Shown here piece by piece: positions 1 to 20,534 of a stretch of DNA of 20,534 nucleotides. Source of the stretch: a virus; IMG/VR virus record IMGVR_UViG_3300033571_006574, positions 1 through 20,534 of that record; one strand, written 5' to 3'. The translations under genes were made by a program, and so were the position numbers. Each line of letters opens with the position of its first letter. Position 1 is the stretch's first letter. The notes beneath the pieces were generated by a model. The model saw nothing but the letters and a program-made list of their open reading frames with translations, ran no database searches and was not told the origin of the DNA.

Positions 1-419
1 ATGGTGTCACCATGAACCAAAGTATCTGTTCCAATTGTTAAAAATTCGTTACTAGAAGAAGTAATAACACCGTCGCTGTACGTATATTCAGACAGTGGTT
101 CCGATGTAATATATTTTACTCTTTCGCTAGTGCTACGATTTGCTAAGACTGTGCTTTCCGTAATATTTGCAGGAACAGATTGATTTTTCAGTCTTACCGT
201 GATAGGTGCAGTGCTTCCATCTGGTGGTACGACGCTGTAGGCATGATGCGAATAAATATGTTTATAATCTGAAATAAGGCCACCAACTGTCAGTTCGTTG
301 CCGTTCACGTCAACAACTTCCCAGTTTTCTGCATACCCATTTAGGGCAATAACATTCTCATTTTCGTCTAAAAATGACCATTCATTGTTTTTGCTAAGAA
401 ATGATTCTGTACGTGCCAT
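1..419 (-). CDS. Probable tail fibre or baseplate-edge protein, 3' end outside window
   Basis: The first 139 codons of a gene that continues past the left edge. Translation from the ATG at 419 gives a protein starting MARTESFLSKNNEW, rich in Ser, Thr, Asn, Val and short beta-like stretches, with no signal peptide or membrane segment. The start codon shares its A with the stop of the upstream baseplate J-like gene in a TAATG overlap, which supports this start and suggests coupled translation. Position directly after baseplate J is where P2-like phages carry tail protein I followed by fibres. I see no tail protein I signature, so a receptor-binding or fibre-attachment protein is an inference from context only. 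Function is not recognised from the residues visible. Confidence 0.6.
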   Translation of the reverse strand, partial: MARTESFLSKNNEWSFLDENENVIALNGYAENWEVVDVNGNELTVGGLISDYKHIYSHHAYSVVPPDGSTAPITVRLKNQSVPANITESTVLANRSTSERVKYITSEPLSEYTYSDGVITSSSNEFLTIGTDTLVHGDT

Positions 420-2191
420 TAAACTGCCCTAGGTATTAGCACTACGGTTATGTCGGTATCGATGTCAAGAATTCTTGGTAGTGTACCTTTGTATTTAAAC
501 TTCAGGTCGCCGTTGGTCTCGTTGCCATCAGAATTGGAGTCCATCCCGGTAATTGTTATATTGCCAACAGATACGATGCCGTCAATCCCAAGTAGGAAAG
601 ATGAGATATAACTGAGTCTAAGATGTTCCTCGTTTGTTGGAAAATTATCTGGACTTATCGAGTTAGCAATAACACTTTTAATAAGTAACTCAATATTTGA
701 ATCCTGCAAAGCATCGTTATATACGACGCTGATACTTATTTCAACGTCGGCTCTAAAAAAATCTTTAACTCCTATTGTTAAACCAGAAATACTTTTTGAC
801 ATCAAATCTGCGCCAATAGCATTTTTGTCGTTGACACCCAAATCTTGGCCTATGCCATAAACAAACGCCGTGACGTAACCAGTAGAATTGGCAGCACCAA
901 TTTCTAAACTGGCAGTATCTGTGGATTGTGTTCTGTCATAAATACGACACCTAGTAACGTTCGTGTATGCGGTAGCAACATATGCTTGCAGTTGACTTGC
1001 AGTAACTAAGACGTCAGATAGTGATGCTATCTGTGTCCGTACTCTGCTCAAATATGTGAAGTCATTTTCTGGCTCAATACCGTTGGTAAATGGCGTAGGA
1101 TAGTAAACGCCAGTTACGTTGGTCACTGTTCCTACAGTTGGTGTTGTACCACCAGTGACCGTGTAACTCATGCTGGTTGTGGTGAGGATTTCTTGAACGA
1201 CTACCGATGTTGGTGAGCCTCCATGAAGAGTCCCTGAACCAGCGGTTGCTGTTAATGTACTACCGGCGACAAACCCTGAAGTTGATTCCATATTGGTAAT
1301 CGTTGCTGTCCACGGACTACCCAGGCTCCCGCCGACAGTTAGGGTTAAGTTATTCGCCGATGTTGCGCCACCAAGGCTTGCGCCCGGGATAGTAATCGTA
1401 TTTCCCAACGCATATCCAGCACCGCCAGATGTTATAGTGACCGTGATAGCCCCACTATATGCCGTGCCTCCTCCGGCTTTGGCTATCGTAAATACTGCAC
1501 CACTACCAGTACCGCTGGTTGCGCTCTGTGTGACCCCAGTATAAGTTGCTGCCCCTGCAATACTAGTTCCAGAAGCAGTAAACGTTGTAGAACCCTGCAG
1601 TAAACCATTCGCACTAATTGAACCGATAGTTCCAGTAGCACTCAAGCCGTCATCCCAAACATTAACGGACTCTAGATTGACGTTGACATTCATTGGTATA
1701 AGAGAGTCGTCGCTAATCATGGTTGGGTGTAAGCCAATAGCCTGAGAGTAAAGAGTCGCTACAGCAGTCAAGGGTGAACCAGTGTCCACGGCATCAATAG
1801 ATACATCTTCTGCTAGTTCATAGGTGTATTGATATGTGTCGCCAGCAATTTTTTCTGAGAAAGAGAAAATGCTTCCTGCTGGAATGTATGCTCCGTCGCT
1901 GTCGGCTGCAACGAATTCTACAACGACTGATGCTCGGGAACCGTAAGAGCGGCTGACTCCAAGCATTTTTGCTGTTCCTTCCATGAGTCGTGAAGGGAGT
2001 CTATTTATTGCCCCTACTGACAGGGATGACATGTATGCGAATGCCTGAAATAGTGCGTCTTCTGGGGTGCCTTGACGTAGGGTGAACTCTGGCATGGATA
2101 TGCGGGCGAGTTCTATCGCACCTAGATAGACGTCTACTGGTTGGACGTCGTATACCGTTAGGTCGATGTATGGTGAAAAATCTGCGGGCAT
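419..2191 (-). CDS. Baseplate J-like wedge protein with internal beta-rich insertion
   Basis: A 590-residue protein of the baseplate J family (P2 gpJ, Mu gp47, T4 gp6-like), which forms the wedge ring around the hub and passes the contraction signal. The N-terminal part (about 1-175) and C-terminal part (about 370-590) look like the family. The central family signature is visible as GIEPENDFTYLSRVRTQIA followed by a region resembling the conserved J-family core. Between residues about 179 and 367 sits a Gly/Ser/Thr-rich stretch with fibre-like modules (AVFTIAKAGGG, SGGAGYALGNTITIPG) that the core family lacks. This makes the protein longer than the usual 350-400 residues. The ATG overlaps the stop of the gp25-like gene (TAATG), with AGAAGG a little upstream. 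The gp25-J order is the classic one and strengthens the call. Confidence 0.88.
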   Translation of the reverse strand: MPADFSPYIDLTVYDVQPVDVYLGAIELARISMPEFTLRQGTPEDALFQAFAYMSSLSVGAINRLPSRLMEGTAKMLGVSRSYGSRASVVVEFVAADSDGAYIPAGSIFSFSEKIAGDTYQYTYELAEDVSIDAVDTGSPLTAVATLYSQAIGLHPTMISDDSLIPMNVNVNLESVNVWDDGLSATGTIGSISANGLLQGSTTFTASGTSIAGAATYTGVTQSATSGTGSGAVFTIAKAGGGTAYSGAITVTITSGGAGYALGNTITIPGASLGGATSANNLTLTVGGSLGSPWTATITNMESTSGFVAGSTLTATAGSGTLHGGSPTSVVVQEILTTTSMSYTVTGGTTPTVGTVTNVTGVYYPTPFTNGIEPENDFTYLSRVRTQIASLSDVLVTASQLQAYVATAYTNVTRCRIYDRTQSTDTASLEIGAANSTGYVTAFVYGIGQDLGVNDKNAIGADLMSKSISGLTIGVKDFFRADVEISISVVYNDALQDSNIELLIKSVIANSISPDNFPTNEEHLRLSYISSFLLGIDGIVSVGNITITGMDSNSDGNETNGDLKFKYKGTLPRILDIDTDITVVLIPRAV

Positions 2192-2487
2192 TATTGACGC
2201 CTTCTGAAAGTGAAGGATATGGTATTGCTTCCATCTCCGTCAATGTTGTTGACAACTTTTATAATTTGAACTTCCGGGACAAATCTGCTAGCATTTATTA
2301 AAAATTGTCCTTTGTCGGCTGACTGGAATGTCGGGTCATAAACACCAAAATCTGGCGTCATGCGCAATATCCCTGGTTCCGTGAGGGCAGAAATACTCAG
2401 TAGTTGCTTATAATAAGAATCGCTGCCGTCATCAAGTTTAGCAAAACCTGTTTCATTATATTCTATTGGGAACCGTAATGAATCCAT
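2191..2487 (-). CDS. gp25-like baseplate wedge protein
   Basis: A 98-residue protein matching the short gp25/gpW (baseplate assembly) family in size, position and pattern. It has an N-terminal RFPIEY start, a middle helical segment, and a C-terminal PEVQIIKVVNNIDGDG followed by a beta strand (TISFTF). In T4, P2 and related tails this protein belongs to the wedge and nucleates sheath assembly. The old lysozyme label for this family is based on fold resemblance and should not be read as enzyme activity. A strong Shine-Dalgarno sequence, AGGAGG, lies about five bases before the ATG at 2487. The next gene begins in a TAATG overlap at 2191. The call rests on both residue pattern and its place immediately before baseplate J. 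Confidence 0.83.
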   Translation of the reverse strand: MDSLRFPIEYNETGFAKLDDGSDSYYKQLLSISALTEPGILRMTPDFGVYDPTFQSADKGQFLINASRFVPEVQIIKVVNNIDGDGSNTISFTFRRRQ

Positions 2488-2537: not shown

Positions 2538-2687
2538 TTATTTAATGTCAGGCGTAGTGGTTTTCTCTGACATTTCACGCATTGTGCCAATCGTTGCCTC
2601 AAGGACGGCAATGCGCTGCGCTTGTGCTGCAATCTGATTTGTCAAAGATTCAATAATCTTGTTGACATCTAATTGTACGTCACTCAT
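2538..2687 (-). CDS. Small coiled-coil protein (49 residues)
   Basis: A short open frame of 49 codons plus stop, starting at the ATG at 2687 and overlapping the stop of the spike/S74 gene in an ATGA junction. The product begins MSDVQLDVNKIIESL and is mostly one predicted amphipathic helix with hydrophobic residues at heptad-like spacing (I, L, I, I, L, I, M) up to about residue 40, ending in a polar tail. No signal peptide or membrane segment is present. It resembles in style the C-terminal helical hairpin of the preceding S74 domain. The 50-base gap to the gp25-like gene holds only that gene's ribosome binding site. Function is unknown. A trimeric helper or assembly factor for the spike/fibre is a possible role inferred from position and helix pattern. 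Confidence 0.68.
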   Translation of the reverse strand: MSDVQLDVNKIIESLTNQIAAQAQRIAVLEATIGTMREMSEKTTTPDIK

Positions 2688-4642
2688 TTGTTCTCCAATG
2701 TCTCTATCTGTTGCTTCAGGAGCGTAATCGTAGCATCCATTTCTTTGATGGCCTGTATTATTGGGGCAACTAGACCCGTATAGTCAAGTATTTGAACGCC
2801 ATTCTCTGGGTCCTCTTTATCAACTAGCGCCCAAAATGAGTAATCATCAGAACCAAGAGTATTGAGTGCTTCTTTTACGTTTTGTGCACTGAGTCCAGCC
2901 CTATATCTGGTTCCGGCGTCGATGGATACTGGGGCGTTTCCGGACTCTTCTGTGAATTGTGGGTATAGGTAGGTGAACTTAATTGGGTCAAGCAAGCGAA
3001 GGAAATTCATCCCCAATGGCAATGGGGCAATATTTTGTTTATATCTAATATCGGATGGGTTATAGAACTGGTATGCCCCAACAATGCTCCAAGCATTGAC
3101 ACCAAAGGTACCTATCCCCCAATAGTATGTGTTATTTGCTGACGGTTGTCCATGCCCAAGACCAGCCAATGTATTACCAGCGAAATTTGAAGTACCGTAT
3201 ATCCAGTTGGTGCCAAGCGAATAAATACCCGATGGGTGATACGAGGCATTCCCAGTTCCGTCTACGTTACTATTCCCGTAGTATGCGTAAGCGTTTAATG
3301 TTCCATTTGAGCCAGTCCCGGAATTGCTGCCGCGGATAGATACACCATCAGACTTGATGAGTATCCGTTCAACTCCAGCGTAATAAAAACGCGATTCACC
3401 AGCAAAGTCCTTATACATAAACCACTGATTATTGGTGTCGTCATATAGCCCAAAACTTGAGCCATTTGACATAAATACAGCGTTGCCATTGATACTGTAA
3501 CCAGCATATGTATTTTTATTACCAGTTACTTGAATTGAGCCATACTCTCCAGAAACAGCATACAGATAATGTGTTGCACTAAGATTGAATGAAGTTGCAG
3601 TTACGGCACCAGTAAAGCGCCCAGTTCCCATGACATTCAATGTATTGGTAACTTCACCGTCGGCAGGAGACTGACCAATAAGTGCGCTATCTGCTGTCCA
3701 AAAGTATTTACTTGTTCCAGTAGTATTGCTTCGGAACCCCATGCGGTACGATGCACTGATTGTTGAATAAAATGACCAACCCGTTGCGCCCTGTAGAACT
3801 GGACCATTAGCCCACGGAAGTGCCGAATCAGCAGTTGTTGATGTGTAAATTTGATTATTAACACTGTTAGGAAGAGTGACTGTCCCACTAAGTGTTAGCC
3901 CAGTTAAAGTACCAACACTAGTAATTGCTGTTTGAGCCGCACCAGTTACAGTAGCGGCAGAACCTGAAACATTTCCTGTCACGTTGCCCGTCAATGCACC
4001 AGCAAATGCCGTAGCAGTAACAGTTCCAACGACTTGAAGTGCTGTTGAAGGAGAAACAGTACCAACGCCAACACGATTATTGGTTGAATCAACTTTAAGT
4101 GTATTTGTGTCAATGGTCACATCCCCAGTAATAACTAGTGATGAGAGCGTGCCAGTCGAGGTGATGCTAGAAAGATTCCCTGTCGTAATTACCGTACCAT
4201 CAACATTAGGTAAAGTGATAGTCCTGTCTGCGGTTGGGTCAACAACAGTGACCGTTGTTTCGTAATCATTATTGGTGGCACCTTCAAAAGAAAGAGTATT
4301 GCCTGTAGAAATAATAATATTTCCGGATAGGTCAATAGTCCCCTCATTGTTTAAGGTGACATTATTTAAGGCGCCTGTAGTATCATATCGTCCATAAACA
4401 ACCAACTCTTGTTTGAGGCCATCCAGAAAGCCACAAATTACTTTGTCGCCTTTAAGTAAAGGTTGAAGCAAGGGTGAACCGACCACTTTACAGCGTTCGA
4501 ATGTCGAACGTAGTTTTTTGACGTGAACACCGACAGTATTGTCAACATAAACTATTTTAATTTCACCCAAATATGTTGCATTTGGTTGTAGTGGGTAGGC
4601 AGAACCTTTTGCCCCAGGTGTAGTTGCTCTAATGTCAGCCAT
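2684..4642 (-). CDS. Baseplate spike (gp5/gpV-like OB domain) fused to fibre and S74 chaperone
   Basis: A 652-residue protein with three visible parts. Residues about 1-95 look like the OB-fold of gp5/gpV-type spikes (YLGEIKIVYVDN, KGDKVICGFLDG, LVVYGRYD), the piece that caps the hub. Residues about 95-525 are a beta-rich, Gly/Thr/Asn-rich fibre, including GVGTVSPSTALQVVG-type repeats often found before S74 domains. Residues 530-652 form a peptidase S74 intramolecular chaperone: S530 begins the SDIRYKQNI motif holding the self-cleaving Ser, followed by YRAGLSAQNV and a C-terminal helix pair ending ETLENK. Family knowledge predicts trimerisation and autocleavage before S530. Start ATG at 4642 directly abuts the hub gene stop. 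Unusual point: spike and S74-bearing fibre in a single chain. The hub gene directly upstream supports the spike role. Confidence 0.83.
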   Translation of the reverse strand: MADIRATTPGAKGSAYPLQPNATYLGEIKIVYVDNTVGVHVKKLRSTFERCKVVGSPLLQPLLKGDKVICGFLDGLKQELVVYGRYDTTGALNNVTLNNEGTIDLSGNIIISTGNTLSFEGATNNDYETTVTVVDPTADRTITLPNVDGTVITTGNLSSITSTGTLSSLVITGDVTIDTNTLKVDSTNNRVGVGTVSPSTALQVVGTVTATAFAGALTGNVTGNVSGSAATVTGAAQTAITSVGTLTGLTLSGTVTLPNSVNNQIYTSTTADSALPWANGPVLQGATGWSFYSTISASYRMGFRSNTTGTSKYFWTADSALIGQSPADGEVTNTLNVMGTGRFTGAVTATSFNLSATHYLYAVSGEYGSIQVTGNKNTYAGYSINGNAVFMSNGSSFGLYDDTNNQWFMYKDFAGESRFYYAGVERILIKSDGVSIRGSNSGTGSNGTLNAYAYYGNSNVDGTGNASYHPSGIYSLGTNWIYGTSNFAGNTLAGLGHGQPSANNTYYWGIGTFGVNAWSIVGAYQFYNPSDIRYKQNIAPLPLGMNFLRLLDPIKFTYLYPQFTEESGNAPVSIDAGTRYRAGLSAQNVKEALNTLGSDDYSFWALVDKEDPENGVQILDYTGLVAPIIQAIKEMDATITLLKQQIETLENK

Positions 4643-5758
4643 TTAAATTAAACCCCCACTTTTAAAAAGGTATGAACCAGCAAGTCCTGTAGATGGGAAA
4701 ATTTGACCAACTTCATAATTGATAATTTTTCCATCAGGACGTTCAGGGCTGGCAAAACTAATATTGACTGGCTCTCGACTAAAATGATTAAACGAAACTT
4801 CGGTGATAAGAAATGGGCGTCCATCAAATGTTGGAATACCAAAAAGCAAGACCGTCATTCCTGGACGCAAGCATATTCCAGAAATGTAGTCAACTGTTGC
4901 GCTACCTTCTGCCGCCAATGGGTCGTCTTCCGATTGTCGCACTTGAGGGCATTGATGAAGTTGGAAAGCATTGCCTATATCCACAAAATTTTTGCTCAAA
5001 TAGTTTCTGGGCCAACGTAAAGGAATGTAGTTGAAAGTTGCACTAAATGATTTATTGGTTTGTGGGTCAATATAATCTAATTCTGTTTGATATAAGCCCC
5101 ATTTCCCTATGAGACGATGTGGGGAAACAAAAAATAGAACGCCATCACATTCAAATAATAAGTATTTTGCTTCGCTAGCAAGACCGTCCATAACTGTCCA
5201 TGTTGAATCTGCTTCAGTATCACCACTTGCTTTTGTTATTTGCTTTTTTTTACTTGTTTTTTGAACGGAGTAATCTAATTTATATTTTTTTGCTGCTGCT
5301 ATAACGAAATCTGAGCCATCACCTTTTATTGTTCCTGGTTCTTTGTCTCGTTTCATTTGCTGAACAGCCTTGGTGCGTAACTCTAGTTTTATTATTGGTG
5401 AGGAGCCACTCCCTGGCGATACCTCTACGGATGCTATTTCTAGTAGTTGTTGCAACCACTCGTTGTCATTCCTGATTGATGCCGTGGGTGTCCCAAGCAT
5501 ACTTTTATCTCCATTGAATTTGCCCATAAATACGTGCGTTCTGTACAGAACGTCTCTGCCAACTATGAAATAATTATTTCGCAGCAGGTCGAAGTTTGTA
5601 TCAACAATTTCTACTGAAAGTTGAGTTACTAAAGTCATAGAATAACTGACATTTATTGAAATAATGGATGATTTTATTTCTTCCATGATGCCAGTGGTTA
5701 GGTCGCCAAATAGTAACTCCCAGTCATCTTGTGCGGTTGTGAAATTATTTTCAGTCAT
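4643..5758 (-). CDS. Baseplate hub protein (gpD/gp27-like)
   Basis: A 371-residue protein from the ATG at 5758, two bases after the stop of the upstream gene. A longer frame back to 5830 exists but would overlap that gene by 70 bases, and the MTENNFTTAQ start is more natural. It is beta-rich, with a helical DSTWTVMDGLASEAKYLLFE segment at about 185-204 followed by DGVLFFVSP, and a C-terminal RPGMTVLLFG... GRPFLITEVSF region at about 298-323. This arrangement is typical of the hub proteins that form the trimeric adaptor between tube and spike (P2 gpD, T4 gp27, late-control D family). It lies directly before the spike gene, as hub genes usually do. No key motif gives certainty. The call rests on residue pattern, size and position between the tape measure block and the spike. 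Confidence 0.72.
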   Translation of the reverse strand: MTENNFTTAQDDWELLFGDLTTGIMEEIKSSIISINVSYSMTLVTQLSVEIVDTNFDLLRNNYFIVGRDVLYRTHVFMGKFNGDKSMLGTPTASIRNDNEWLQQLLEIASVEVSPGSGSSPIIKLELRTKAVQQMKRDKEPGTIKGDGSDFVIAAAKKYKLDYSVQKTSKKKQITKASGDTEADSTWTVMDGLASEAKYLLFECDGVLFFVSPHRLIGKWGLYQTELDYIDPQTNKSFSATFNYIPLRWPRNYLSKNFVDIGNAFQLHQCPQVRQSEDDPLAAEGSATVDYISGICLRPGMTVLLFGIPTFDGRPFLITEVSFNHFSREPVNISFASPERPDGKIINYEVGQIFPSTGLAGSYLFKSGGLI

Positions 5759-5760
5759 AA

Positions 5761-7311
5761 CTATTCCGTTACCGTAGGTGTAGGTGCAACAATACTGCCC
5801 CACACTGAATCCTGCAGAATAGGTGACCACAAATCCGGATTACCGGGCGTGCCACCACCTGGAATGGTTGGTGGTGGTGGTGTCCCCGGAATTTTCAACT
5901 TGGGCAACCTATAAAGACTTTGTTTCTCAATAGGATACTCAATCAAAGACAAACTTACTTGAGCAACAGATATAAGTGAAGGAGTAGTATTAGTTCTACG
6001 TTTCGCAGTAATACTTAAGTCCGAAATAGCCCATTCGCTAGGAACTGCCGTAACGGAAGCCTGACGTAACTGTAAATCAAAAATGCTATCCAAACCAAAA
6101 ATAGTAACAGGCAAAGGCAGGGTGGCCATTGCTCTCAGCATCTGCAAATCGTCTTCAACGTCTACATTAATACCGTCAGGAACTTCTGTATTTATTTGTC
6201 CGTTTGTTTCAATTCTTGTTCCAGCAACAATAAAAGACATTTGCACTTTAGTTAAACTCCAGGCATTCCATTCTATTAACGGGGAGTCTGTCGAGCGTGG
6301 TATCTCATTCCATTCCGAACCACCTGGTGTATAAGATATTGTTTGTGGTGTATAGGGAAAAATAAACTTTCTTTCAACTGGATTGCCATCAGTATCAGTG
6401 AACCGTTGAATAATGAAAGGACGAGTCTCCGGAGTTCTTGGTAGTATTGAACTATATCCATTATTTGTTTTGACCGACACTGTCGCTTCCCCATAATCAA
6501 CGAGAGATATGACAGGATTTTTTGATGAGTTAGATGTTGGGGGTCGCGGTCCGTTTTTGTTGCCGGGACGCGTTGGTAATATTCTAGTTTTAAAATATTC
6601 ATCAATTTGTGCTTGCGTATAACCCTGACCTAAAAGGGTGGTTGTTATTACCCCTATAATAATGCCCGGAATAGCAAACGGGTCTTTCGACGATAAATTT
6701 CCTACATTTACTGTTCCGACACCGGGTATTTCTAGATTGCCATTTTTGTCTGGATTAGTTTCTAGTTTATCATCTCCTCCAGTTAAATCTTCGTCAATCT
6801 CACCGGCGCCTACAGTGCTCGAATACCAGGCATCCATTGTTGACTGCGAGATTGCAGAATATTTGGAACGACTTTGCAGGTACCATTTCCACCCTGTCCC
6901 TAGTGAGGCATTGATGTCAGAGGTATTATAAAAAAGTTTAGGCAATGTCGTACTAGGCGAGGTTGCATTATATAAAACTGGCGACCATAGACGCTTAATA
7001 ACATATTGGTCAGTTCCAATGCCAACAGGCATTAGCCCATATCTTCCGGAAAAAACTATTTCTTTAAGACTATAGGATTCATCTCCTAGTCCAAAAGAAG
7101 TATAATATTCTTGTACGGTATTCGTATCATATGTACTGTATTTTGCGTAGTCAACTACTTTTGTTCTAATCATACTTATGCGTATGCTGCCAAAGCCGCC
7201 GCGACCTACGCCGCGAATACCAGGTTCGTTAAACGATTTTGTGACTTTAACTTTGGACCTATCAGGCCAATTGCTCGTGAGATATGGGTTAGGGTTAGCG
7301 ACGGGGGGCAT
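5761..7311 (-). CDS. Baseplate/tube-initiator candidate, paralogue B
   Basis: A 516-residue protein from the ATG at 7311, which overlaps the stop of paralogue A in a TAATG junction. An in-frame start at 7374 would overlap by 64 bases and is less likely. The C-terminal domain (about 315-460) has FIFPYTPQ, SEWNEIPRS, a WSLTKVQMSF stretch, VPDG, LRAMATLPLPVTI and AQVSLSLIEY, all aligning by eye with the neighbour. A central GYTQAQIDEYF helix precedes a Pro/Asn-rich linker. The tail holds GTPPPPTIPGGG and ends near DLWSPILQ, again shared with the neighbour. Such genes between tape measure and hub often encode XkdP-like or tube-initiator proteins. That role is inferred. I see no clear LysM domain. 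Specific biochemical role unknown. Confidence 0.62.
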   Translation of the reverse strand: MPPVANPNPYLTSNWPDRSKVKVTKSFNEPGIRGVGRGGFGSIRISMIRTKVVDYAKYSTYDTNTVQEYYTSFGLGDESYSLKEIVFSGRYGLMPVGIGTDQYVIKRLWSPVLYNATSPSTTLPKLFYNTSDINASLGTGWKWYLQSRSKYSAISQSTMDAWYSSTVGAGEIDEDLTGGDDKLETNPDKNGNLEIPGVGTVNVGNLSSKDPFAIPGIIIGVITTTLLGQGYTQAQIDEYFKTRILPTRPGNKNGPRPPTSNSSKNPVISLVDYGEATVSVKTNNGYSSILPRTPETRPFIIQRFTDTDGNPVERKFIFPYTPQTISYTPGGSEWNEIPRSTDSPLIEWNAWSLTKVQMSFIVAGTRIETNGQINTEVPDGINVDVEDDLQMLRAMATLPLPVTIFGLDSIFDLQLRQASVTAVPSEWAISDLSITAKRRTNTTPSLISVAQVSLSLIEYPIEKQSLYRLPKLKIPGTPPPPTIPGGGTPGNPDLWSPILQDSVWGSIVAPTPTVTE

Positions 7312-8906
7312 TATGGTGTCCCTGTCGGCAAAACAATAGTATTTCCTACGGCTACTTGTAAAGTAGGAGACCACAAATCAGGACCACTTGGTGTCGTTGT
7401 ATTAGTTGGTATATTTGGCACAATCTCATCAAATGATGGCCGTTTAATATTGAAAATAGTACTTGATTCAACAATAATTTCAAGCAAAGTAATGTTAACT
7501 TGTGCCGTAGTGATTCGTTGCGGAGGAGTTTTTTGACGCCTAATAGCCTCAATAGTTAAATCAGTCATTACGAACTGAGTAGGTTTCTTACTTAAAGAAT
7601 CATTAGTGTTCGTAAGAAGCGAATCCATGTTATATATAGTAATCGGCTGTTTGGTTTGAAACATTAAACGCAAGACATTCAACTGTTCATCAACGGATGC
7701 ATCCATGCCATCAGGGACTAAGACGCCACCAGGTTCTAGTCTTGTTGAAGCGACGATTAAAGAAAACGAAACTTTCATTCTTTGAAAAGAGGACCAGTCT
7801 AAGAAAGGATAGTTGTATCCGCGTGGTATCTCTGTCCATACCGATGACAATGAAGAATATTGAACGTCGCTAGGGATATATGGAAAAACAAACTTTAGAG
7901 AAGAAAAATTAGAACTTGTTTCTGTAGTACTGCTTTCTGGGATGCCATTATTTAAATCTTCGGCTGACCTTACTGGCTGATTTGCTAAATATTGAATCAT
8001 TTGCGGTTTAGTATCTTCAGCACCCGTTGATAGTGGTGGTAAAAGTCTTGGTGTCTCGTATGAACGCCCCAAACGCACTGTTACGAGTTGGCTTACTATT
8101 GGTTTGCTTACAATTCCATAAGACACAGTCTTGGATGAACCCCCACCAGGACCTCCCCTAGGTCCAGTGCCGGGAGGGTTCGAATTACTGGGGTTGCCAG
8201 TGGGAGCCTTATATACATAACTTGCCAAGAATGCATCAACGTCTGCTTGTGTATGACCTTTTTTCAATAAAGCAGCACGAAGAGCATTTTTAATGTTCTG
8301 AATAGTCTCCGCCGGGGTTTTGCCTAATGCTGCAGTTACAGTAACTCCGAAAGCATCAATGTTGGTAACAATTGCACCATATGTGCCTGTTGTAACCCCA
8401 TAGGAGAAAGAACCTGGAGAATTTAAAGTAGGTACGGGATTATAATAAGCAGCACCAACAACAAAAGGGTTAACCGTAGTTGGAGTAGGGCCAAGACCAG
8501 AACCTACAGAACCCCCAGTCACATCCACATTTACTACTTCTAGAGGAGGAGGAACCATGTGTGGTGAAGGACCAGGATTATTTGCGACAACAGCATATTC
8601 TCCGTCGGTAGTAGTCCAAAACTGGCGATACGGAGAATAATAATGATAATTTCCTCGGTTTGGACTGTTTAAAGGTTTGTATTGAAAGGATTCTTCCGTC
8701 CAAATTTCATGTGTTTTGAAAGCGGTATGAGTTGCAGTGACTTTATCTCCTGACTTGAATTCCGGATTTTTTACAAGGCCAGTAGCATTCAAGCGGACAA
8801 GAATACCGAACAATCCACTGTTTCTGTGTGAGCCTACAGGACCCTGAGAAGGATATGGGCTACGACTATTGTCCCCATTATCTTTAGGTGGCCAACTTTT
8901 TGCCAT
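7311..8906 (-). CDS. Baseplate/tube-initiator candidate, paralogue A
   Basis: A 531-residue protein directly after the tape measure gene, its ATG overlapping that gene's stop (TAATG). The C-terminal domain (about 338-472) reads FVFPYIPSDVQY, SVWTEIPRG, FLDWSSFQRMKVSFS, VPDG, LNVLRLM, PITIYNMDS, TDLTIEAIRRQ and AQVNITLLEI. A helical GHTQADVDAFL segment lies near 225, followed by a GTGPRGGPGGGSS hinge. It ends DLWSPTLQ... IVLPTGTP. Each of these has a counterpart in paralogue B, so the pair arose by tandem duplication. Position and the W-x-E-I-P-R/P-x-x-x-W pattern recall XkdP-type proteins that join tube and hub, but I do not recognise it with certainty. The N-terminal 200 residues are Pro/Gly/Thr-rich and differ more between the two copies. 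Confidence 0.62.
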   Translation of the reverse strand: MAKSWPPKDNGDNSRSPYPSQGPVGSHRNSGLFGILVRLNATGLVKNPEFKSGDKVTATHTAFKTHEIWTEESFQYKPLNSPNRGNYHYYSPYRQFWTTTDGEYAVVANNPGPSPHMVPPPLEVVNVDVTGGSVGSGLGPTPTTVNPFVVGAAYYNPVPTLNSPGSFSYGVTTGTYGAIVTNIDAFGVTVTAALGKTPAETIQNIKNALRAALLKKGHTQADVDAFLASYVYKAPTGNPSNSNPPGTGPRGGPGGGSSKTVSYGIVSKPIVSQLVTVRLGRSYETPRLLPPLSTGAEDTKPQMIQYLANQPVRSAEDLNNGIPESSTTETSSNFSSLKFVFPYIPSDVQYSSLSSVWTEIPRGYNYPFLDWSSFQRMKVSFSLIVASTRLEPGGVLVPDGMDASVDEQLNVLRLMFQTKQPITIYNMDSLLTNTNDSLSKKPTQFVMTDLTIEAIRRQKTPPQRITTAQVNITLLEIIVESSTIFNIKRPSFDEIVPNIPTNTTTPSGPDLWSPTLQVAVGNTIVLPTGTP

Positions 8907-11900
8907 TACTTTCGCTCCGTAATGCTGCGCTCGTTAGATTTAATCAATGCAAGAACTTCTGCGGCCAACTGTTGAGGATTCTTATTATAACCATTAATAT
9001 TAATAGAATAGTTATTAGTAGAACCAGAAGAAACAGCAACCCCATCCTGACCAACGGCACCCATAGAAACAGCAGTAGAAGTATCACCGGAAGCCCTAGC
9101 ATTAGGCACAACATGAAGATGACGAGCAGCATTCACACCATGGAACTCCGCAAACCCACCACTAGCCTCAACAGCAGACTTATATTGTCCAAGGTTCTGA
9201 CCAACAAGGTCCAAGGCCCCACCAGTAACATGGTCCGAGTTAATGGAACCTAAATTGAAATTACGGACACCAGAAGTTATCTGACGCTTACCCGTGACCA
9301 TGGATGATAATGCTTGATGCTTCATGAAAGTAGAGTTGAATCGTGATGATGCAGTATCGCCACGAGGAGTTGTCGTGTCTTGCAAAGCGTCGTCTATTCC
9401 ATCTTTGTTTTTGTCAATTATTGTAGTAGCAGCCGCTATGGTATTAGGAATGTTCGCTATAATTGTACCCATCTCACTTACGAAAGATTCAAGCACCGAC
9501 GTTACATCTGACAATTTCAAACCTAACGCTTCTAGTTCGGAATCAATATTAGGAGGTGTCAAATCTAACTTATCTGCCTCAACACGTGCAAATCCGTCGC
9601 CAAGGTAATCATTCATCACCCTACCTATCTCCACCGGCGTCAATTCGTTGAGACCCCTGCCCTGACGCAGGGAGGACTCCTTTGTCGGGTCCAAGAATGT
9701 TTGCAACTCATTATATCTTGCAAAATCAGTTCGTGCCAAATCAGCAAACAAACCTGGCAATGCTTCAAAAGAAGCCCCCTTCGCTTTATATGTCCCAGAA
9801 TCCAGTCCAGCAAGAGCCTCGACGTATTGCCTTTGACCCGCTAATCCAGATTCCTTAAATGTGTCACTAGACATTCCTGCTAAAAGTGCACCAAGTTCTC
9901 CAGTAGTGAACAATGAGATGATGTCAGCGTTATTGAAATACCCGTTTTCTTGCATGAAAGCCTTGCCACCAGGACCTATTTGTTCCATCAACGATACCAT
10001 TGCTTGTTGTGTATTGCCACCATAGAATTGAGTGTAAGCCTGAAACATTTCCATTATTTTGTCTGAAGCAGTAGCCGCATCTAAGGTCCCTGCCTTATTC
10101 GCTTCGTAGATTGAGCGACCAATTTCGTCAATGATTGCAGGTGCTCTTTCTTGTTCACCAAAAGTTCTTAACTTCTCCATGTTTGCGCCCATTTGGTTGG
10201 CAAAAATGCCTTGAATTTCTAGTTGTGTCGAAGCCAAACCTTCAGCAATTTTTTTGAATGTTTCACCAAAACCTTCTCGTACTTCAAAAAGGTTTGTACC
10301 AGTTTCTTTTGCTAAAGAAATTATGTCGTCTTCGCTTTTACCAAAGGCTTTAGCAAGGTCCTCTAATTTGGACTTATAACTGTCCTTGACATATTTCATA
10401 ACTGCCGCATCTGTACCACCTTTTTCTTGTATGGCAGTAAAAAATGCTTCCAAATCTCCAGTTGCTTTGTCTACCGCAGCCTGGTCAGGGAGGTATTTGG
10501 CCCAAGCGCCAGAATTGGTATCGAACTGGCGTTGAAGTTCCGCTTTCATACCTGAGTCGCCATTTTTTTCGATATCTTTCAAAGCGTCGCCTGCCATTTT
10601 TTGCAATTCAATTATTGGTCGTGAAGCATTTTCTAAAGTTTTATCAATGTTTGCCGTAGTCAACCCTGCTGTTCCTACGTTCATCAGCGTTGAAGATAAA
10701 CCTTTCATCATTTCCTGATGCGCTTCTCGAACCATGCTTTCGCCAATTTTTTTTGCTTCTTGTTTTCTCTTCTTATTTTTATTCCACCAACTACCAAGTC
10801 CAGAAATTGCTCCTCCAAGAACAGCGCCGACGGCGGCACCATAAGGGCCACCAATTTTCATTCCCATAGCAGCACCACCAGCGGCCCCCATACCTACGGC
10901 TGCTAAAGGATTTTTTGCGTTCATACCAGCACCAACAAGACCAACACCGAGACCCATCATCGGGTCAAATTGTGCGACAGCGCCACCAACGGCTAATGCC
11001 CCTTGCATTTCCTTTGGAGCAAATTGACTTCCAGCAGCAAGGGCAGCACCAATACCAAATGATGCTTTTCCACTATTTAGAGCACCTTTAAAATTTTTGC
11101 CGTCACCAAACATTTTCTGATAGGCAGCACTAGTACGTCCACCCCTAAATTTTTGACCAATATTTTTGGCACCGGTCACTAATTTCCCCACACGACCAGA
11201 GCCCGACCAAGTATCGCCGGGCATATCCGCAAGTTTTGCTTCGGAGTATCCCGGACGGAATAAGTTTTTTAATCTTCCGCCAGGCTTCCAGTTCATCTTA
11301 GGGTTTCCGTTGTCATCGAACTGTATTGCGCCGTCGGCTCCAAGGTCAAATTCTTTGTCCTGCATGGCCCATTCTTTATGACTTGATGGCCCCTGATTCG
11401 GCGAACCGATACCATCTCTAAAGTCCTGTATTTCTTTCAAGCGTTGTTCAGGGAAATTGGCTGCCCTAATATTTTTAGCGTATGCAATTCCTTTTAAGCG
11501 CTTATCTCTATCGTTTTGAGTAAGTGCTCTAGCAGGAGTGCGTGGAGTTCTTTTTGCTCGGCTAGAATCGCCAGCCTCAAAACTATCTAATAATTTTTTA
11601 CTTTCTTCCCTTGCTTTTATGGTATCACTAACAATGCCTTGCGACCTGCTAGCAATATCTGCTAGTCCTGTGCCTCCAGCAGCATCGACGACAGCAGCAG
11701 TGCTTGCCATACCAGCAACAGCAGCACCCGCTCCCGCTCCCGAATTACCAGTTGCACCAAATCTATTAGCATTTCTTACAGCAGGACCACTAGTTTGTCC
11801 TCCGGCAGTTACTCCATGCATTGGGACGCCATTGATGCTGGCGCTATTAATATTGACAACGTTGGCATTAATATCTTGTCTGGATAGTGTTCCGCCAATA

Positions 11901-13492
11901 GTCTTCTTCATTGAAGTTCCTATTGCTCTTGAACCAAGCAGCAATGCAAGTGAAGATAATTCGCCACCACCAAAAAGTTCACGAATTCCACCCATCAAAG
12001 AAAAAACGGTATCAAGAATACTAGTTAAACCATCTATGACTTTATTAATGAATGGCAAAATATCAAAGAATATGTCTCGTAAAGTTTTCCCGTATTTAAA
12101 AATTGTAATAATTAAATTACCAATTTTAGAACCAAACGCTTCAACATCGGCACGATTCTCTTGAAGTAAATCATTGATGTGCCCGAAGCCATCCGCCAAC
12201 TCTCTACCAACAATTCTAAAAATGTTTCCGAACATTTTTTCTAAAACTCTTGCACCGTCGATAAGGGGACGCAATTTTTCTAAAACGTAATCCCACCCCA
12301 TCTTAAATTGCCCCATCCATTCACTAATTTTGGAGAAGAAACCGCCTGCCTGTGGCAAAAACTTGTTAACAAATTTAACAAAAAAGTTTTCAAATTTTTC
12401 AATAGCAGAAAAAAGGCCTTCAAAAAAACTTCCTTGACTAAATACGGCGAGACTTCCAGAGATACGTACAAAAGTTTTCTTCAAAGAGAAAGCAACTTCT
12501 TCTAAAAATACTTTAGTAGGTTCAAGTAATGGTTGACCAAAGTCGGCGAACATGGCAACCGCTTGTGTTTTTAATGCCTTGAATCTACTCAAGAGAGTTC
12601 CAGATACGGCATCAAACTGCCCTGCAACACCACCAGCAAGAGCAAGCGAACCATCATTAATGGCGTTGATGAGGCCTTCCTTGGTCGTGATATTTAGGTC
12701 TGTTAGAGCCTTCTCCATTGCTGGACCAAGTTCTTCTGCCGCTTTCTTCATCTTGCTAAAATCTGCTTTAGGGTCCTGTATTGTTGCAATAAGTTTTCCT
12801 GCAGCAGCAGCACCCTTAGCAACATCTTGACCAGCCGCACCAAAATCCATTAAGGACTTCAACATTTTCTGAGTGCCACCACCATAGGTGCCAGTCTTGT
12901 AAATTTCTGCCAACGCAGCATTCAAACCTTCAGCACCAATGGTTGCCAACTGGGAATCGGTCTGCATCATCCGCATCTGGACACGGACCTGGTTAATTCC
13001 TTTGCCGAACTCTCCCATGTTTGTACCTTTGTAGGCATACATTGCGGCCTGATGTTCCCTCATTGCCGCTGCAGCAATGGAAGCAGCCGTAGCAAGAGCA
13101 CCAATAGCGCCAGCACCAGCCTTCATGAGCCAGTTCCATGCTTTCATCGCTGCCTGCCCAACAACAAAAGCGGCATGAACAGCCAACAATGCCGCACCAA
13201 GAGCAGCCACCTGAATAGTGGCAAACTTTGCAGACATCGCAATACCTTTATGAATCATTCCACCAGAGGCTTTAACCATCTTGTCAATGCCATCAAAATG
13301 TTTTCTGTGGATTCTAGTCTGGTCCGTCAAACTTTTAGACATTTTGTCAGTGTAGGCACCTAAACTTCGAGCGGACTCTTTAAAATTCTGTGCATTGGCT
13401 AAACGGGCAAGTTTCTTGAGTTGGTGACCTACCTTAGTAAGTTTCCACGCACCATCAACACCAATATTAACGTCAAGGTTTGCCTCTGCCAT
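8906..13492 (-). CDS. Tape measure protein with C-terminal M15-like peptidase signature
   Basis: A 1528-residue protein, by far the longest here, which sets tail length and is ejected through the tube. At roughly 1.5 angstrom per residue the helical ruler would correspond to a tail of about 200 nm. Hydrophobic segments lie at about 86-143, and a Gly/Ala-rich zipper-like stretch at about 810-900 (GLGVGLVGAG, GAAGGAAMGMKIGG), followed by a basic KNKKRKQE run. Near the C-terminus D1360-x-N-x-D-G-I-x-D1368 resembles a calcium-binding loop. Residues about 1395-1465 carry S-x-H1421-x-x-G-x-A-x-D1428 and H1458-L-H1460, the zinc-ligand pattern of M15 peptidases that cut wall peptides. The catalytic acid is not obvious. 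TAGGAG lies seven bases before the ATG at 13492. It follows the frameshifted chaperone, as expected. Confidence 0.94.
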   Translation of the reverse strand: MAEANLDVNIGVDGAWKLTKVGHQLKKLARLANAQNFKESARSLGAYTDKMSKSLTDQTRIHRKHFDGIDKMVKASGGMIHKGIAMSAKFATIQVAALGAALLAVHAAFVVGQAAMKAWNWLMKAGAGAIGALATAASIAAAAMREHQAAMYAYKGTNMGEFGKGINQVRVQMRMMQTDSQLATIGAEGLNAALAEIYKTGTYGGGTQKMLKSLMDFGAAGQDVAKGAAAAGKLIATIQDPKADFSKMKKAAEELGPAMEKALTDLNITTKEGLINAINDGSLALAGGVAGQFDAVSGTLLSRFKALKTQAVAMFADFGQPLLEPTKVFLEEVAFSLKKTFVRISGSLAVFSQGSFFEGLFSAIEKFENFFVKFVNKFLPQAGGFFSKISEWMGQFKMGWDYVLEKLRPLIDGARVLEKMFGNIFRIVGRELADGFGHINDLLQENRADVEAFGSKIGNLIITIFKYGKTLRDIFFDILPFINKVIDGLTSILDTVFSLMGGIRELFGGGELSSLALLLGSRAIGTSMKKTIGGTLSRQDINANVVNINSASINGVPMHGVTAGGQTSGPAVRNANRFGATGNSGAGAGAAVAGMASTAAVVDAAGGTGLADIASRSQGIVSDTIKAREESKKLLDSFEAGDSSRAKRTPRTPARALTQNDRDKRLKGIAYAKNIRAANFPEQRLKEIQDFRDGIGSPNQGPSSHKEWAMQDKEFDLGADGAIQFDDNGNPKMNWKPGGRLKNLFRPGYSEAKLADMPGDTWSGSGRVGKLVTGAKNIGQKFRGGRTSAAYQKMFGDGKNFKGALNSGKASFGIGAALAAGSQFAPKEMQGALAVGGAVAQFDPMMGLGVGLVGAGMNAKNPLAAVGMGAAGGAAMGMKIGGPYGAAVGAVLGGAISGLGSWWNKNKKRKQEAKKIGESMVREAHQEMMKGLSSTLMNVGTAGLTTANIDKTLENASRPIIELQKMAGDALKDIEKNGDSGMKAELQRQFDTNSGAWAKYLPDQAAVDKATGDLEAFFTAIQEKGGTDAAVMKYVKDSYKSKLEDLAKAFGKSEDDIISLAKETGTNLFEVREGFGETFKKIAEGLASTQLEIQGIFANQMGANMEKLRTFGEQERAPAIIDEIGRSIYEANKAGTLDAATASDKIMEMFQAYTQFYGGNTQQAMVSLMEQIGPGGKAFMQENGYFNNADIISLFTTGELGALLAGMSSDTFKESGLAGQRQYVEALAGLDSGTYKAKGASFEALPGLFADLARTDFARYNELQTFLDPTKESSLRQGRGLNELTPVEIGRVMNDYLGDGFARVEADKLDLTPPNIDSELEALGLKLSDVTSVLESFVSEMGTIIANIPNTIAAATTIIDKNKDGIDDALQDTTTPRGDTASSRFNSTFMKHQALSSMVTGKRQITSGVRNFNLGSINSDHVTGGALDLVGQNLGQYKSAVEASGGFAEFHGVNAARHLHVVPNARASGDTSTAVSMGAVGQDGVAVSSGSTNNYSININGYNKNPQQLAAEVLALIKSNERSITERK

Positions 13493-14765: not shown

Positions 14766-16247
14766 TCAAACTACTGAAGTGGTAAGGTTGGATTTTACAA
14801 TACTTACTTCGATACTGTCTCCAACGCCCGAGACACGGAGTCCAACACGTGCAGTAATGGTACCGTTGGCCAGATTTGCTATCGGATTCAATGATGCATT
14901 ACACTTAACAGTGTAGCCATAGTCGACACGATTGCCCAACTGGTCAAAAGCCTCATAAAGGGCGCCGTTGAGACGGAGTGGTTCAAGAATACCGATGAGT
15001 CGTGCCTCAACTTCAGCGAAGATACGGCCACGGCCATCAATGACGCTGAACAGGATGTCCTCAAGGGCTCGTTCTGCTTCAACGACCACATGGTTGACAA
15101 CATCTTGCGCTGTGATGTAACGGAAGTTATCGGTATCGTCTGACAATGAACGTGCACCGTAGATGCGGATACTGTTATTGATGAAACGAATGACGTTAAC
15201 TTTTGCTTCATCAAGGGTGTCTGCACTAGTCTTTCCAATTTCTGCTTCCACACCATTAATGTAGCGTGTAGTAGAGATAATACCCGCACCAGGCTGATGT
15301 TGGCCAATATTGTTATGGGCACGAGCACGGGCTCCGGCAGCATATCCGTCCGGTGGGATAAGACGGTTGACGCCCGGTGTTCCTGATGGTGCATAAACCC
15401 ACGGGTAGTAGATTGCTACGTGTTCCAAGTTGTCTGCAACGCTACCAGTAATGTATTCTGCTGCATCTTGTGCTTGTGCTGCTGTTTGACCATCATCGGT
15501 GTGAAGGATGGCGATACGATTGTTGGCATTTGCATGAGTGATGAGTGCTGCAGGTACGGTACCAACGCTTGATGCTGTTCCTGTGTGTTCTGGGCATGCA
15601 ACAGCGCCAGAGCCGTACGAGTCCAGGAATAAATCCAGGGCTGTAACGTGGTTGGCTTCAGTCGGCGTTGTGCCATCTGCGCCTCCAGTAAGGGCGGCCA
15701 GAGCACTGGTGGTGATAAGACCAGCGAGAGCATTTCCTGCCGAGGCAACAATATAGTTGCTGGCAATGAGGCTGTTATTGATTTTTCCAATGATTTGCGC
15801 ATTGGTAGTGCAGTTTCCGGTGGAGAAAATAAGAACATCGTCATAATAAATCTTCACTATGACAGAGTTCGCAATAGAACCAGCGACGACTAACACGTCG
15901 AGGTCGGCGCTCCATGCACCAGCACCAATAGCGGTCAGGACGACGGCACCATATGGTGATGTATCCGAAAGAACTTTTGCGCCAGTAGTCGCATTGGCAT
16001 TAATAGCACGAGCGATATAGCACTGCGAGCCGCCTTCTTCAAAGAATGCTTCCACAGTCGAATGTAGATAGGCATTAGCAACATAGCCGCCATAGACTAA
16101 TTCATATTCTTCCATTGAACTAACTTTGACGGCGGTATTGGTCGGCCCACGCTGCGCTATGCCAACGAAGAACGCCTGCGAAGATTCGCGAACCGTAGTT
16201 GATGTGGGGCCGGTTCGCACCGCTGTTGAAATCTGTACACCAGGCAT
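14766..16247 (-). CDS. Contractile tail sheath protein
   Basis: A 493-residue protein clearly of the phage tail sheath family. The N-terminal MPGVQIS...ESSQAFFVGIAQRGP and SMEEYELVYGG parts, the middle YYPWVYAPSGTPGVNRLIPP with GYAAGARAR (the conserved proline-glycine loop), and the C-terminal VIDGRGRIFAEVEARLIGIL and LRLNGALYEAF segments follow the family order. The sheath stores energy in its extended state and contracts to drive the tube into the cell. Residues about 110-230 form the variable outer domain. AGGAAGG stands four bases before the ATG at 16247. The preceding 84-base gap holds a TACAAT box and a short AT-rich palindrome but nothing firm. This gene shows that the tail is contractile. 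Confidence 0.94.
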   Translation of the reverse strand: MPGVQISTAVRTGPTSTTVRESSQAFFVGIAQRGPTNTAVKVSSMEEYELVYGGYVANAYLHSTVEAFFEEGGSQCYIARAINANATTGAKVLSDTSPYGAVVLTAIGAGAWSADLDVLVVAGSIANSVIVKIYYDDVLIFSTGNCTTNAQIIGKINNSLIASNYIVASAGNALAGLITTSALAALTGGADGTTPTEANHVTALDLFLDSYGSGAVACPEHTGTASSVGTVPAALITHANANNRIAILHTDDGQTAAQAQDAAEYITGSVADNLEHVAIYYPWVYAPSGTPGVNRLIPPDGYAAGARARAHNNIGQHQPGAGIISTTRYINGVEAEIGKTSADTLDEAKVNVIRFINNSIRIYGARSLSDDTDNFRYITAQDVVNHVVVEAERALEDILFSVIDGRGRIFAEVEARLIGILEPLRLNGALYEAFDQLGNRVDYGYTVKCNASLNPIANLANGTITARVGLRVSGVGDSIEVSIVKSNLTTSVV

Positions 16248-19034: not shown

Positions 19035-19064
19035 ATTGTAGCATGTATTAAGGGTTTATGTTAA
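19035..19064 (-). promoter_or_regulatory. Sigma70-like promoter, extended -10
   Basis: On the minus strand TTAACA (19064-19059) is followed after 18 bases by TACAAT (19040-19035), with TGC immediately before it, forming an extended -10 (TGCTACAAT). The predicted start is near 19028, giving a leader of about 23 bases that contains the AAGGAG of the Arg-rich gene. The -35 box overlaps the stop codon of the ParB-like gene. It would separate transcription of the structural block from the accessory pair upstream. Confidence 0.55.
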
Positions 19065-19612
19065 CGGTCTGCGTTTGGGGGAGTTTCAATAATTGCTGGC
19101 GCTTTATCTATTGTCCCTGGTGGAGCCTCTACCGGCACCCACGCGCGAGAGTAATTGTGAGATTTGATATCGCGTTGTTTGATGATTGTTCCATCAAGCA
19201 TGAGTTCTAGTTCTACTGATTTCATAGACAGACGATTTTCAAAATCTTTAATACTATATTTGCGTGACCTCTTCAGAGTGCGAATAATATGAGAGATTTT
19301 TTTGGCTACGGCGGCTCCTCGTGCACGGTTTATCTGCAAATGCAGGAACATGGCATCAAGTTCCTCACAGTCAACGTAGTTCACTGGTATTTCGTTCATG
19401 ATTGCATCAGCCAAATTCTTATTACCGCGAATCAATAAAAGCCGTTGGCTGCCGTCAATGACGACATTCCCTTCGCGTTGGACAATAAGTGGTGATAAAA
19501 TACCAAAAGAAGCAATAGAGTCAGCCAAACTCATCAAATCTGGTTTTAAAATATAAGTAGCATTCCACTCAGGAATAACCAAAACATCCTCTTTAACAAA
19601 ATCAATCTTCAT
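19061..19612 (-). CDS. ParB/sulfiredoxin-fold protein, IbrB-like
   Basis: A protein of 183 residues from the ATG at 19612, overlapping the end of the upstream PAPS-reductase-family gene by 11 bases. The frame is open back to 19675, but MKIDFVKEDVLVIPEWN is a normal start for this family. The ParB N-terminal-like core is clear: LMSLADSIASFGILSPLIVQ, VVIDGSQRLLLIRG with the G-x-x-R motif, IPVNYVDCEELDAMFLHLQI, then a helix containing AVAKKISHIIRTL. Proteins of this fold may bind nucleotide or act in DNA binding, ATP hydrolysis or nuclease roles. Coupling to a PAPS-reductase-family gene matches the IbrA/IbrB arrangement known from enterobacterial prophages. The C-terminal 40 residues are Pro-rich and probably flexible. 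No centromere-like repeats are seen, so plasmid-type partition is not supported. Confidence 0.8.
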   Translation of the reverse strand: MKIDFVKEDVLVIPEWNATYILKPDLMSLADSIASFGILSPLIVQREGNVVIDGSQRLLLIRGNKNLADAIMNEIPVNYVDCEELDAMFLHLQINRARGAAVAKKISHIIRTLKRSRKYSIKDFENRLSMKSVELELMLDGTIIKQRDIKSHNYSRAWVPVEAPPGTIDKAPAIIETPPNADR

Positions 19613-20534
19613 AAAACTCAACATCATCCTTTGCTGCAGCAAGACGCATCGTATGCGCCCTAGTTTTTGGACCAACCGGAGTTACCGCCCGATTTCCCAA
19701 TTCATTCAACATAATGTTCCTAATCAACCACTCAATTGGATATGAGTAAGGGTCCAAAGCATGCTTCTTGCGAAACTCTGCAGCAAAACTTTGTGCCCTC
19801 TTCTTCTTGGTTGGACCCACCATGAAGTAATCAATGGCTTCCCGCACGCCATTCCAGCCCAATGCAGCATATGAAGCGATAACCTTCTCAATGTCGTAAT
19901 CTGGCCACCATCTGCGTTGCGCATCAATATGGGGGAAGCATTCGTACAGGCGGTCATAGAAGTCTGGCTCAGTAGCAACGAGGTCTCCAATGCGACGAAT
20001 AGCAATTGAGTGCAACGGAATACCAACCCTGGTATTAGAACCCGTCAAGGCGGCAAGGTCGTAGTACTCGCAGTAGTCGGCCCCATGTTCTTCGCTTAAG
20101 AACTTGAAAACATCGTTGATTTGCCAATCATAGATAACTTTAGCAAACTTTAACGGCATACCTTTTTTGCCACGATAAGGGGTGACAATATAGTTTTCGT
20201 GAAGTTTTTGAACACACGAACGGTAACGAATCATTGACTCAGAGGCACGAACACCAGTCAAGAAAGCAACCTTACCCTTCTTGCCTTGCATCGTGTAGTA
20301 GTCAACGTCTTCAGGGACAGGCTTTGAGTGCGTTAAACCAAAGTGATACCCAGTGATGGCCCATGGCGGAATTTCTCGCACTAGACGCCCTTCCTTCATG
20401 CGCTTCTCGCCCCAAAGGATAACTGACTGTCGTTGTCCAAGAACCCATACTTCAGCGCCATACGGGATGCAATACCACTCCATATCGACCCAGTCATAGT
20501 CACGAACTTTCATGACGTAATCAACGACTAGGGG
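19602..20534 (-). CDS. PAPS reductase / PP-loop family protein, IbrA-like, 5' end outside window
   Basis: The frame is open through the right edge (codons for PLVVDYV precede the Met at 20513, with no ribosome binding site), so this is the C-terminal 310 residues of a longer protein. The PP-loop SGGKDS motif expected in the family would lie beyond the edge. Visible family features are WYCIPYGAEVWV, EIPPWAITG, FLTGVRASESMIRYRSC (the G-x-R-A-x-E-S-x-x-R signature), and KVIYDWQINDVFKFLSEEHG followed by YDLAALTG. The family activates or reduces sulfate compounds or uses ATP for nucleotide-type chemistry. The IbrA branch has no settled reaction to my knowledge. It overlaps the ParB-like gene, suggesting joint function. 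Confidence 0.8.
   Translation of the reverse strand, partial: PLVVDYVMKVRDYDWVDMEWYCIPYGAEVWVLGQRQSVILWGEKRMKEGRLVREIPPWAITGYHFGLTHSKPVPEDVDYYTMQGKKGKVAFLTGVRASESMIRYRSCVQKLHENYIVTPYRGKKGMPLKFAKVIYDWQINDVFKFLSEEHGADYCEYYDLAALTGSNTRVGIPLHSIAIRRIGDLVATEPDFYDRLYECFPHIDAQRRWWPDYDIEKVIASYAALGWNGVREAIDYFMVGPTKKKRAQSFAAEFRKKHALDPYSYPIEWLIRNIMLNELGNRAVTPVGPKTRAHTMRLAAAKDDVEFYED

Follow-up and report, generated by a model that had tools for sequence, protein, structure and literature searches.

The window analysed here, the whole 20,534-nucleotide stretch of the IMG/VR virus record IMGVR_UViG_3300033571_006574, encodes in one chain an OB-domain protein at the gene position of a central tail spike, a long fibre region and a peptidase S74 chaperone with intact catalytic residues; the first-pass annotation had already read spike, fibre and S74 chaperone in a single polypeptide. 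Homology searches, structure prediction and gene order make it probable that the central spike of a contractile tail has here been rebuilt as a central fibre matured by its S74 domain, a judgement that covers architecture and maturation and is separate from the question of receptor binding. Comparison with its relatives places the protein in a modular family whose members carry a variety of extensions.

Gene layout and the C-terminal chaperone

The gene runs on the minus strand, a detail absent from the first-pass annotation, whose coordinates were otherwise right; the plus strand across 2684-4642 is full of stops, and the ATG follows directly after the stop codon of the upstream gene. Its parts are as follows.

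2684..4642 (stop codon included), minus strand: whole gene of the spike-fibre-S74 protein, 652 aa (open reading frame and translation)
4367..4642, minus strand: N-terminal tail and OB domain, residues 1-92, proposed to dock under the hub (AlphaFold model of a 49-member profile, structural matches)
3056..4366, minus strand: fibre region, residues 93-529, with repeats common to separate fibre genes of relatives (identity to the fibre of relative L014)
2687..3055, minus strand: peptidase S74 intramolecular chaperone, residues 530-652, 123 aa (Pfam PF13884, E = 7.6e-07; phrog_4636 tail spike, E = 4.5e-13)
3038..3055, minus strand: expected cut before S530, with the Ser-Lys dyad S530/K535 (SDIRYK) (invariant in nine aligned S74 domains; spacing as in MyRF and endoNF)

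The C-terminus is almost certainly a peptidase S74 domain. The Pfam model Peptidase_S74 (PF13884) matches residues 530-596 with 29.8 bits against a cut-off of 22, tail-spike and tail-fibre families of PHROGs match over the C-terminal part, and S530 and K535 are both present, which bears out the earlier description of a 123-residue chaperone with S530 in SDIRYKQNI. The two residues are invariant across the nine aligned S74 domains, SPO1 gp2.52 included, and are kept even in the divergent L060 copy, where the neighbouring Asp is lost; in relative G016, whose gene is split, the Ser and Lys of the S74 copy are also five apart. The same spacing is found in MyRF (S587/K592) and endoNF (S911/K916), and alanine at either MyRF residue abolishes the cut, which falls between P586 and S587 (PMC8326128). 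In the window protein P529 precedes S530, so that a Pro stands before the Ser as in MyRF. Self-cleavage at P529/S530, which in peptidase S74 takes place ahead of the serine and in the trimer only, is a prediction that we consider likely; the computed products are a released piece of 123 residues and 13.8 kDa and a remainder of 55.2 kDa.

The OB domain and its genomic setting

The first-pass annotation had assigned the N-terminus to the OB domain of a gpV/gp5 spike, an assignment that stands at the level of fold and finds a weak match by sequence alone. The first 95 residues on their own matched no spike family model in Pfam or PHROGs, and a sequence search of the PDB with the whole protein returned no match. 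Relatives were gathered through the neighbouring hub gene, giving 80 viral loci, and the N-terminal profile was made up of 49 relatives. Strands of the OB domain are predicted between residues 23 and 85, and the profile folds in AlphaFold, with modest confidence (pLDDT 69), as a five-stranded OB domain whose structural matches include, at Z 8-9, P2 gpV, Mu gp45 and the R2 pyocin spike as well as baseplate proteins of P1 and A-1(L); a fold match of this region to solved spikes was thus found. Because unrelated OB proteins, among them initiation factor IF1 and proteasome OB domains, reach scores equal to those of the spikes against this model, the fold alone identifies an OB domain and is no proof of a spike. 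Weak sequence signals agree with the spike reading: Pfam Phage_base_V is reached weakly by three of the 49 relatives (best E = 0.0045), and in the PDB two baseplate proteins of contractile injection systems are matched weakly (E 0.08 to 0.1). Comparison of the OB profile by hhalign with a small alignment of seven Mu gp45 relatives was not significant.

Since the OB fold is generic, it is gene position that decides the identity of the protein as a central spike, and the neighbouring genes on which this turns are listed below.

4643..5758, minus strand: hub gene, 371 aa, proposed docking partner (model pLDDT 82.7; PDB matches, best E = 3.1e-11)
2191..2487, minus strand: gp25-like baseplate wedge gene, downstream of the spike gene (phrog_5026 baseplate protein, E = 1.4e-11; GMA6 baseplate profile match, E = 1.5e-15)
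419..2191, minus strand: baseplate J-like gene (position only: order as in Mu gp44-gp47)
14766..16247, minus strand: tail sheath (phrog_23, E = 1.3e-41; PDB sheath proteins, E = 2.8e-26)
8906-13492, minus strand: presumed tape measure (read from size and position)

The genes are arranged in the order sheath, tube, tape measure, two related proteins, hub, spike gene, gp25-like gene and J-like gene; a tail assembly chaperone gene is also present, and the sheath gene marks the tail as contractile. The succession of hub, OB, gp25-like and J-like genes is that of Mu gp44-gp45-gp46-gp47, the J-like gene itself having no family match in PHROGs. All 50 PDB matches listed for the hub model, T4 gp27, Mu gp44 and VgrG included, are by title tail or injection-system hubs or VgrG-type proteins, and Pfam hub matches among the hub relatives are weak; as neither the hub nor the gp25-like profile gave a significant match to small Mu-family alignments, the identity of the hub rests on its predicted fold together with these weak Pfam matches. 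The hub profile also matches proteins of the Gordonia phages GMA6 and UBSmoodge and of Arthrobacter phage Lymara.

Searches with the OB profile found exactly one gene in each of eight records, a 106-kb record being among those checked. In the same eight records no PAAR protein was matched and no other gpV-type protein was detected, the sole weak, sub-threshold match being the OB gene itself. This lack of a second spike or PAAR protein in perhaps incomplete records is a suggestive hint that the OB gene is the spike. Overall, the OB protein is likely to occupy the central position of the tail.

Further features of the window lie around these genes. The J-like protein carries a Gly/Thr-rich repeat insert at about residues 190-340, which is also present in L002, the L050 version being shorter. 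At the C-terminus of the presumed tape measure, the stretch SGVRNFNLGSINSDHVTGGALDLVG...HLHV resembles, by eye, an M15-type peptidoglycan peptidase, with no match in Pfam or PHROGs. The proteins encoded at 5761-7374 (minus strand) and 7311-8906 (minus strand), between tape measure and hub, are 31% identical over 336 residues and probably represent an old tandem duplication in the baseplate region. A gene truncated at the edge of the window, 3-419 (minus strand), continues in the 106-kb record (L001 10224-12300), where its product reaches 692 aa or more and contains two Lcl C-terminal domains, the domain that tips the spike of relative L048; it is probably a second adhesin. Upstream of the neck and tail genes, at 19061-20513 (minus strand), lie two overlapping genes, one PAPS-reductase-like (phrog_2302, E = 9.1e-46) and the other ParB-like (phrog_2159, E = 3.5e-19).

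Relatives, module exchange and alternative readings

Among 63 distinct hubs, the next gene was readable in 60. In 45 of these it encodes a minimal OB protein, about 100 to 158 residues long and in many cases with an apparent coiled coil at its end. In the other 15 the OB domain is followed by a long extension, which has collagen-like repeats, carries an Lcl C-terminal domain or another fibre tip, or is a fibre with S74. The S74 domain stands in one frame with the OB domain in six relatives, the seventh being the split G016, and L013 has the same OB-to-fibre transition with a different tip. In G016 the OB domain and collagen-like sequence lie at one contig end, while collagen-like sequence and the S74 domain, followed by a gp25-like gene, lie at the other. 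The ends of this 158-kb contig (L053 end, L100 start) overlap by 101 bases within the collagen-like repeat; because the overlap falls within a repeat, we only infer that the two halves of the spike are joined across them, and the arrangement points to a genome that is circular, or circularly permuted, and was broken within the spike gene. On the hub tree the S74 carriers require four changes, one of them caused by a truncated relative, so that S74 appears to have been acquired separately at least three times, and probably four, with the split G016 counted.

Searches of a phage collection turned up no cultured phage with an OB and S74 protein in the slot between hub and gp25-like gene. A possible laboratory surrogate is the cultured Arthrobacter phage Lymara, whose 656-aa minor tail protein gp26 (L104 7684-9654) is matched weakly at its N-terminus by the OB profile (E = 0.005) and, further along, matches a Phage tail repeat. 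A match in Pelagibacter phage HTVC008M falls in what is annotated as a baseplate wedge initiator gene, whose genomic surroundings differ. SPO1 also has an S74 gene, which we rejected as a precedent: this gene encodes a tailspike of its own and is surrounded by a glucosaminidase-like gene and tRNAs, with no hub or gp25-like gene annotated nearby.

The joint between the OB domain and its extension can be followed in the closest outgroup, L014, which encodes an OB-only protein and keeps its S74 fibre in a separate gene two positions further along. Residues 147-255 of the window protein are 71% identical in protein and 80.5% in DNA to that fibre. Because L014 keeps the matching fibre as a separate gene, the window gene has the appearance of an OB spike to which a fibre module, independent in this relative, has been joined; joining is the presumed direction of change, and the splitting of a fused gene is possible as well. 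L011 and L026 are 22% identical in the OB domain and 94% in the next 52 residues, the DNA match beginning at the joint, a pattern by which modules are judged to be exchanged at the OB/fibre joint. Separate fibre genes lie between the spike and gp25-like genes at L026 11063-12841, L007 3801-5192 and L014 8772-10178, two of them with S74-like ends.

Several other readings of the gene have to be weighed against this background. If the OB domain were a mere attachment domain, the protein could be a side fibre on the baseplate wedge or periphery and the true spike some unrecognised protein; S74 domains are indeed best known from side fibres and tailspikes, the OB fold by itself does not single out a spike, and the S74 fibre of L014 is a gene of its own. 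However, in Mu it is the spike gene that lies between hub and gp25-like gene, most relatives fill this slot with a minimal OB protein that has no fibre to attach, and the eight records offer no other candidate for a spike or PAAR tip, which leaves a side fibre unlikely. Assembly error is a further concern, as fibre repeats common to neighbouring genes in relatives could mislead an assembler into fusing two genes. The separate 106-kb IMG/VR record (L001) nevertheless holds the same ORF, with 3 mismatches in 12,758 bases, the OB-to-fibre transition of L013 leads to another tip, and the combination of OB and S74 recurs in other lineages; an assembly chimera is therefore highly improbable and was rejected on the strength of the repeated ORF.

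The remaining alternative accepts a central spike with a fibre and concerns the fate of the S74 domain, which might stay uncut as a trimerisation cap or receptor-binding tip. The distance of its sequence from the Pfam model (29.8 bits) speaks for this, as does the finding that many residues near the MyRF site affect cleavage (PMC8326128). Yet a dyad that is invariant in nine domains, even in L060 without the neighbouring Asp, that retains its spacing in the split G016 copy and that follows a Pro in the window protein as in MyRF makes an uncut domain quite unlikely, and we retain the reading of a central spike rebuilt as a fibre that matures by cleavage.

Proposed working and wider significance

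In the architecture that we infer, three copies of the protein would dock through their N-terminal OB domains under a trimeric hub encoded by the upstream gene, in the place taken elsewhere by gpV, gp45 or gp5; rather than ending in a short pointed tip, each chain would run on along the tail axis as a fibre of ~440 residues. The S74 domain would bring the three chains together, assist the folding of the fibre and then cut each chain at P529/S530 by means of S530-K535, which would free a 13.8-kDa chaperone and leave about 55 kDa of each chain in the fibre. The exposed fibre would touch the host first and act as an axial adhesin or contraction trigger rather than a long needle. The first-pass annotation had proposed that a long tip pierces the membrane, a proposal for which we see no support: neither a pointed beta-helix nor a PAAR-like tip came to light, the relatives lack an extension in three-quarters of cases, and the extensions vary in the manner of adhesins. 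For these reasons an attachment or trigger fibre is likelier than a longer needle, and the fibre is most likely a central adhesin or contraction trigger, although receptor binding is less secure than the central position or the cleavage.

The protein shares with the spikes gpV, Mu gp45 and T4 gp5 its N-terminal OB domain and the position of its gene between a gp27/gp44-type hub and a gp25-like gene. It differs from them in that the short pointed beta-helix appears to have given way to a long fibre with an S74 domain, with no PAAR match in the eight records, and a significant sequence relationship to them was not found. Its C-terminal S74/ICA domain following a fibre region, with Ser and Lys five apart, is shared with the endosialidase endoNF, the T5 L-shaped fibre, GA-1 gp12 and MyRF, whereas these are side fibres, tailspikes, neck appendages or a transcription factor and the window protein has an OB domain in the spike slot. 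Siphophage central fibres (Tal, lambda gpJ) also lie on the tail axis below the hub and are used for attachment. There, in contrast, the tail is non-contractile and the fibre is an extension of the hub protein itself, whereas the window has a sheath gene and separate genes for hub and fibre, so that its fibre would continue a separate spike protein of a contractile tail.

Closer to the present case, Gp111 of Bacillus phage Vp4 and Gp188/Gp186 of Deep-Blue combine a spike-like N-terminal part with subsequent host-binding domains, the two parts lying on one protein or on two; these spikes carry carbohydrate-binding modules, and S74 on a spike is not reported there (PMC11406892). Domain shuffling in tail proteins, baseplate spikes included, has likewise been described (PMC10684548). 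OB spikes, S74-matured fibres and spikes with host-binding domains are therefore already known, while the literature searched, which leaves most subscription journals outside, yielded no account of a contractile tail whose OB spike bears an S74-matured fibre, nor one of the modular family.

As a tentative extension of these observations, the spike of a group of uncultured contractile phages may be their main receptor-binding organ, with adhesins (collagen-like, Lcl-type and S74-matured fibres) swapped by recombination at one joint onto the docking OB domain. In the usual description of contractile tails, receptors are bound at the periphery and the centre does the piercing. If the spike is an exchangeable adhesin, binding and piercing would be joined on one axis, as in the central fibres of siphophages; the host would be sensed and held on the tail axis, and the same protein would be driven inward on contraction. 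Contractile phages could then change the surface that they recognise through the exchange of a single module, a possibility that bears on how contractile machines couple contact to contraction.
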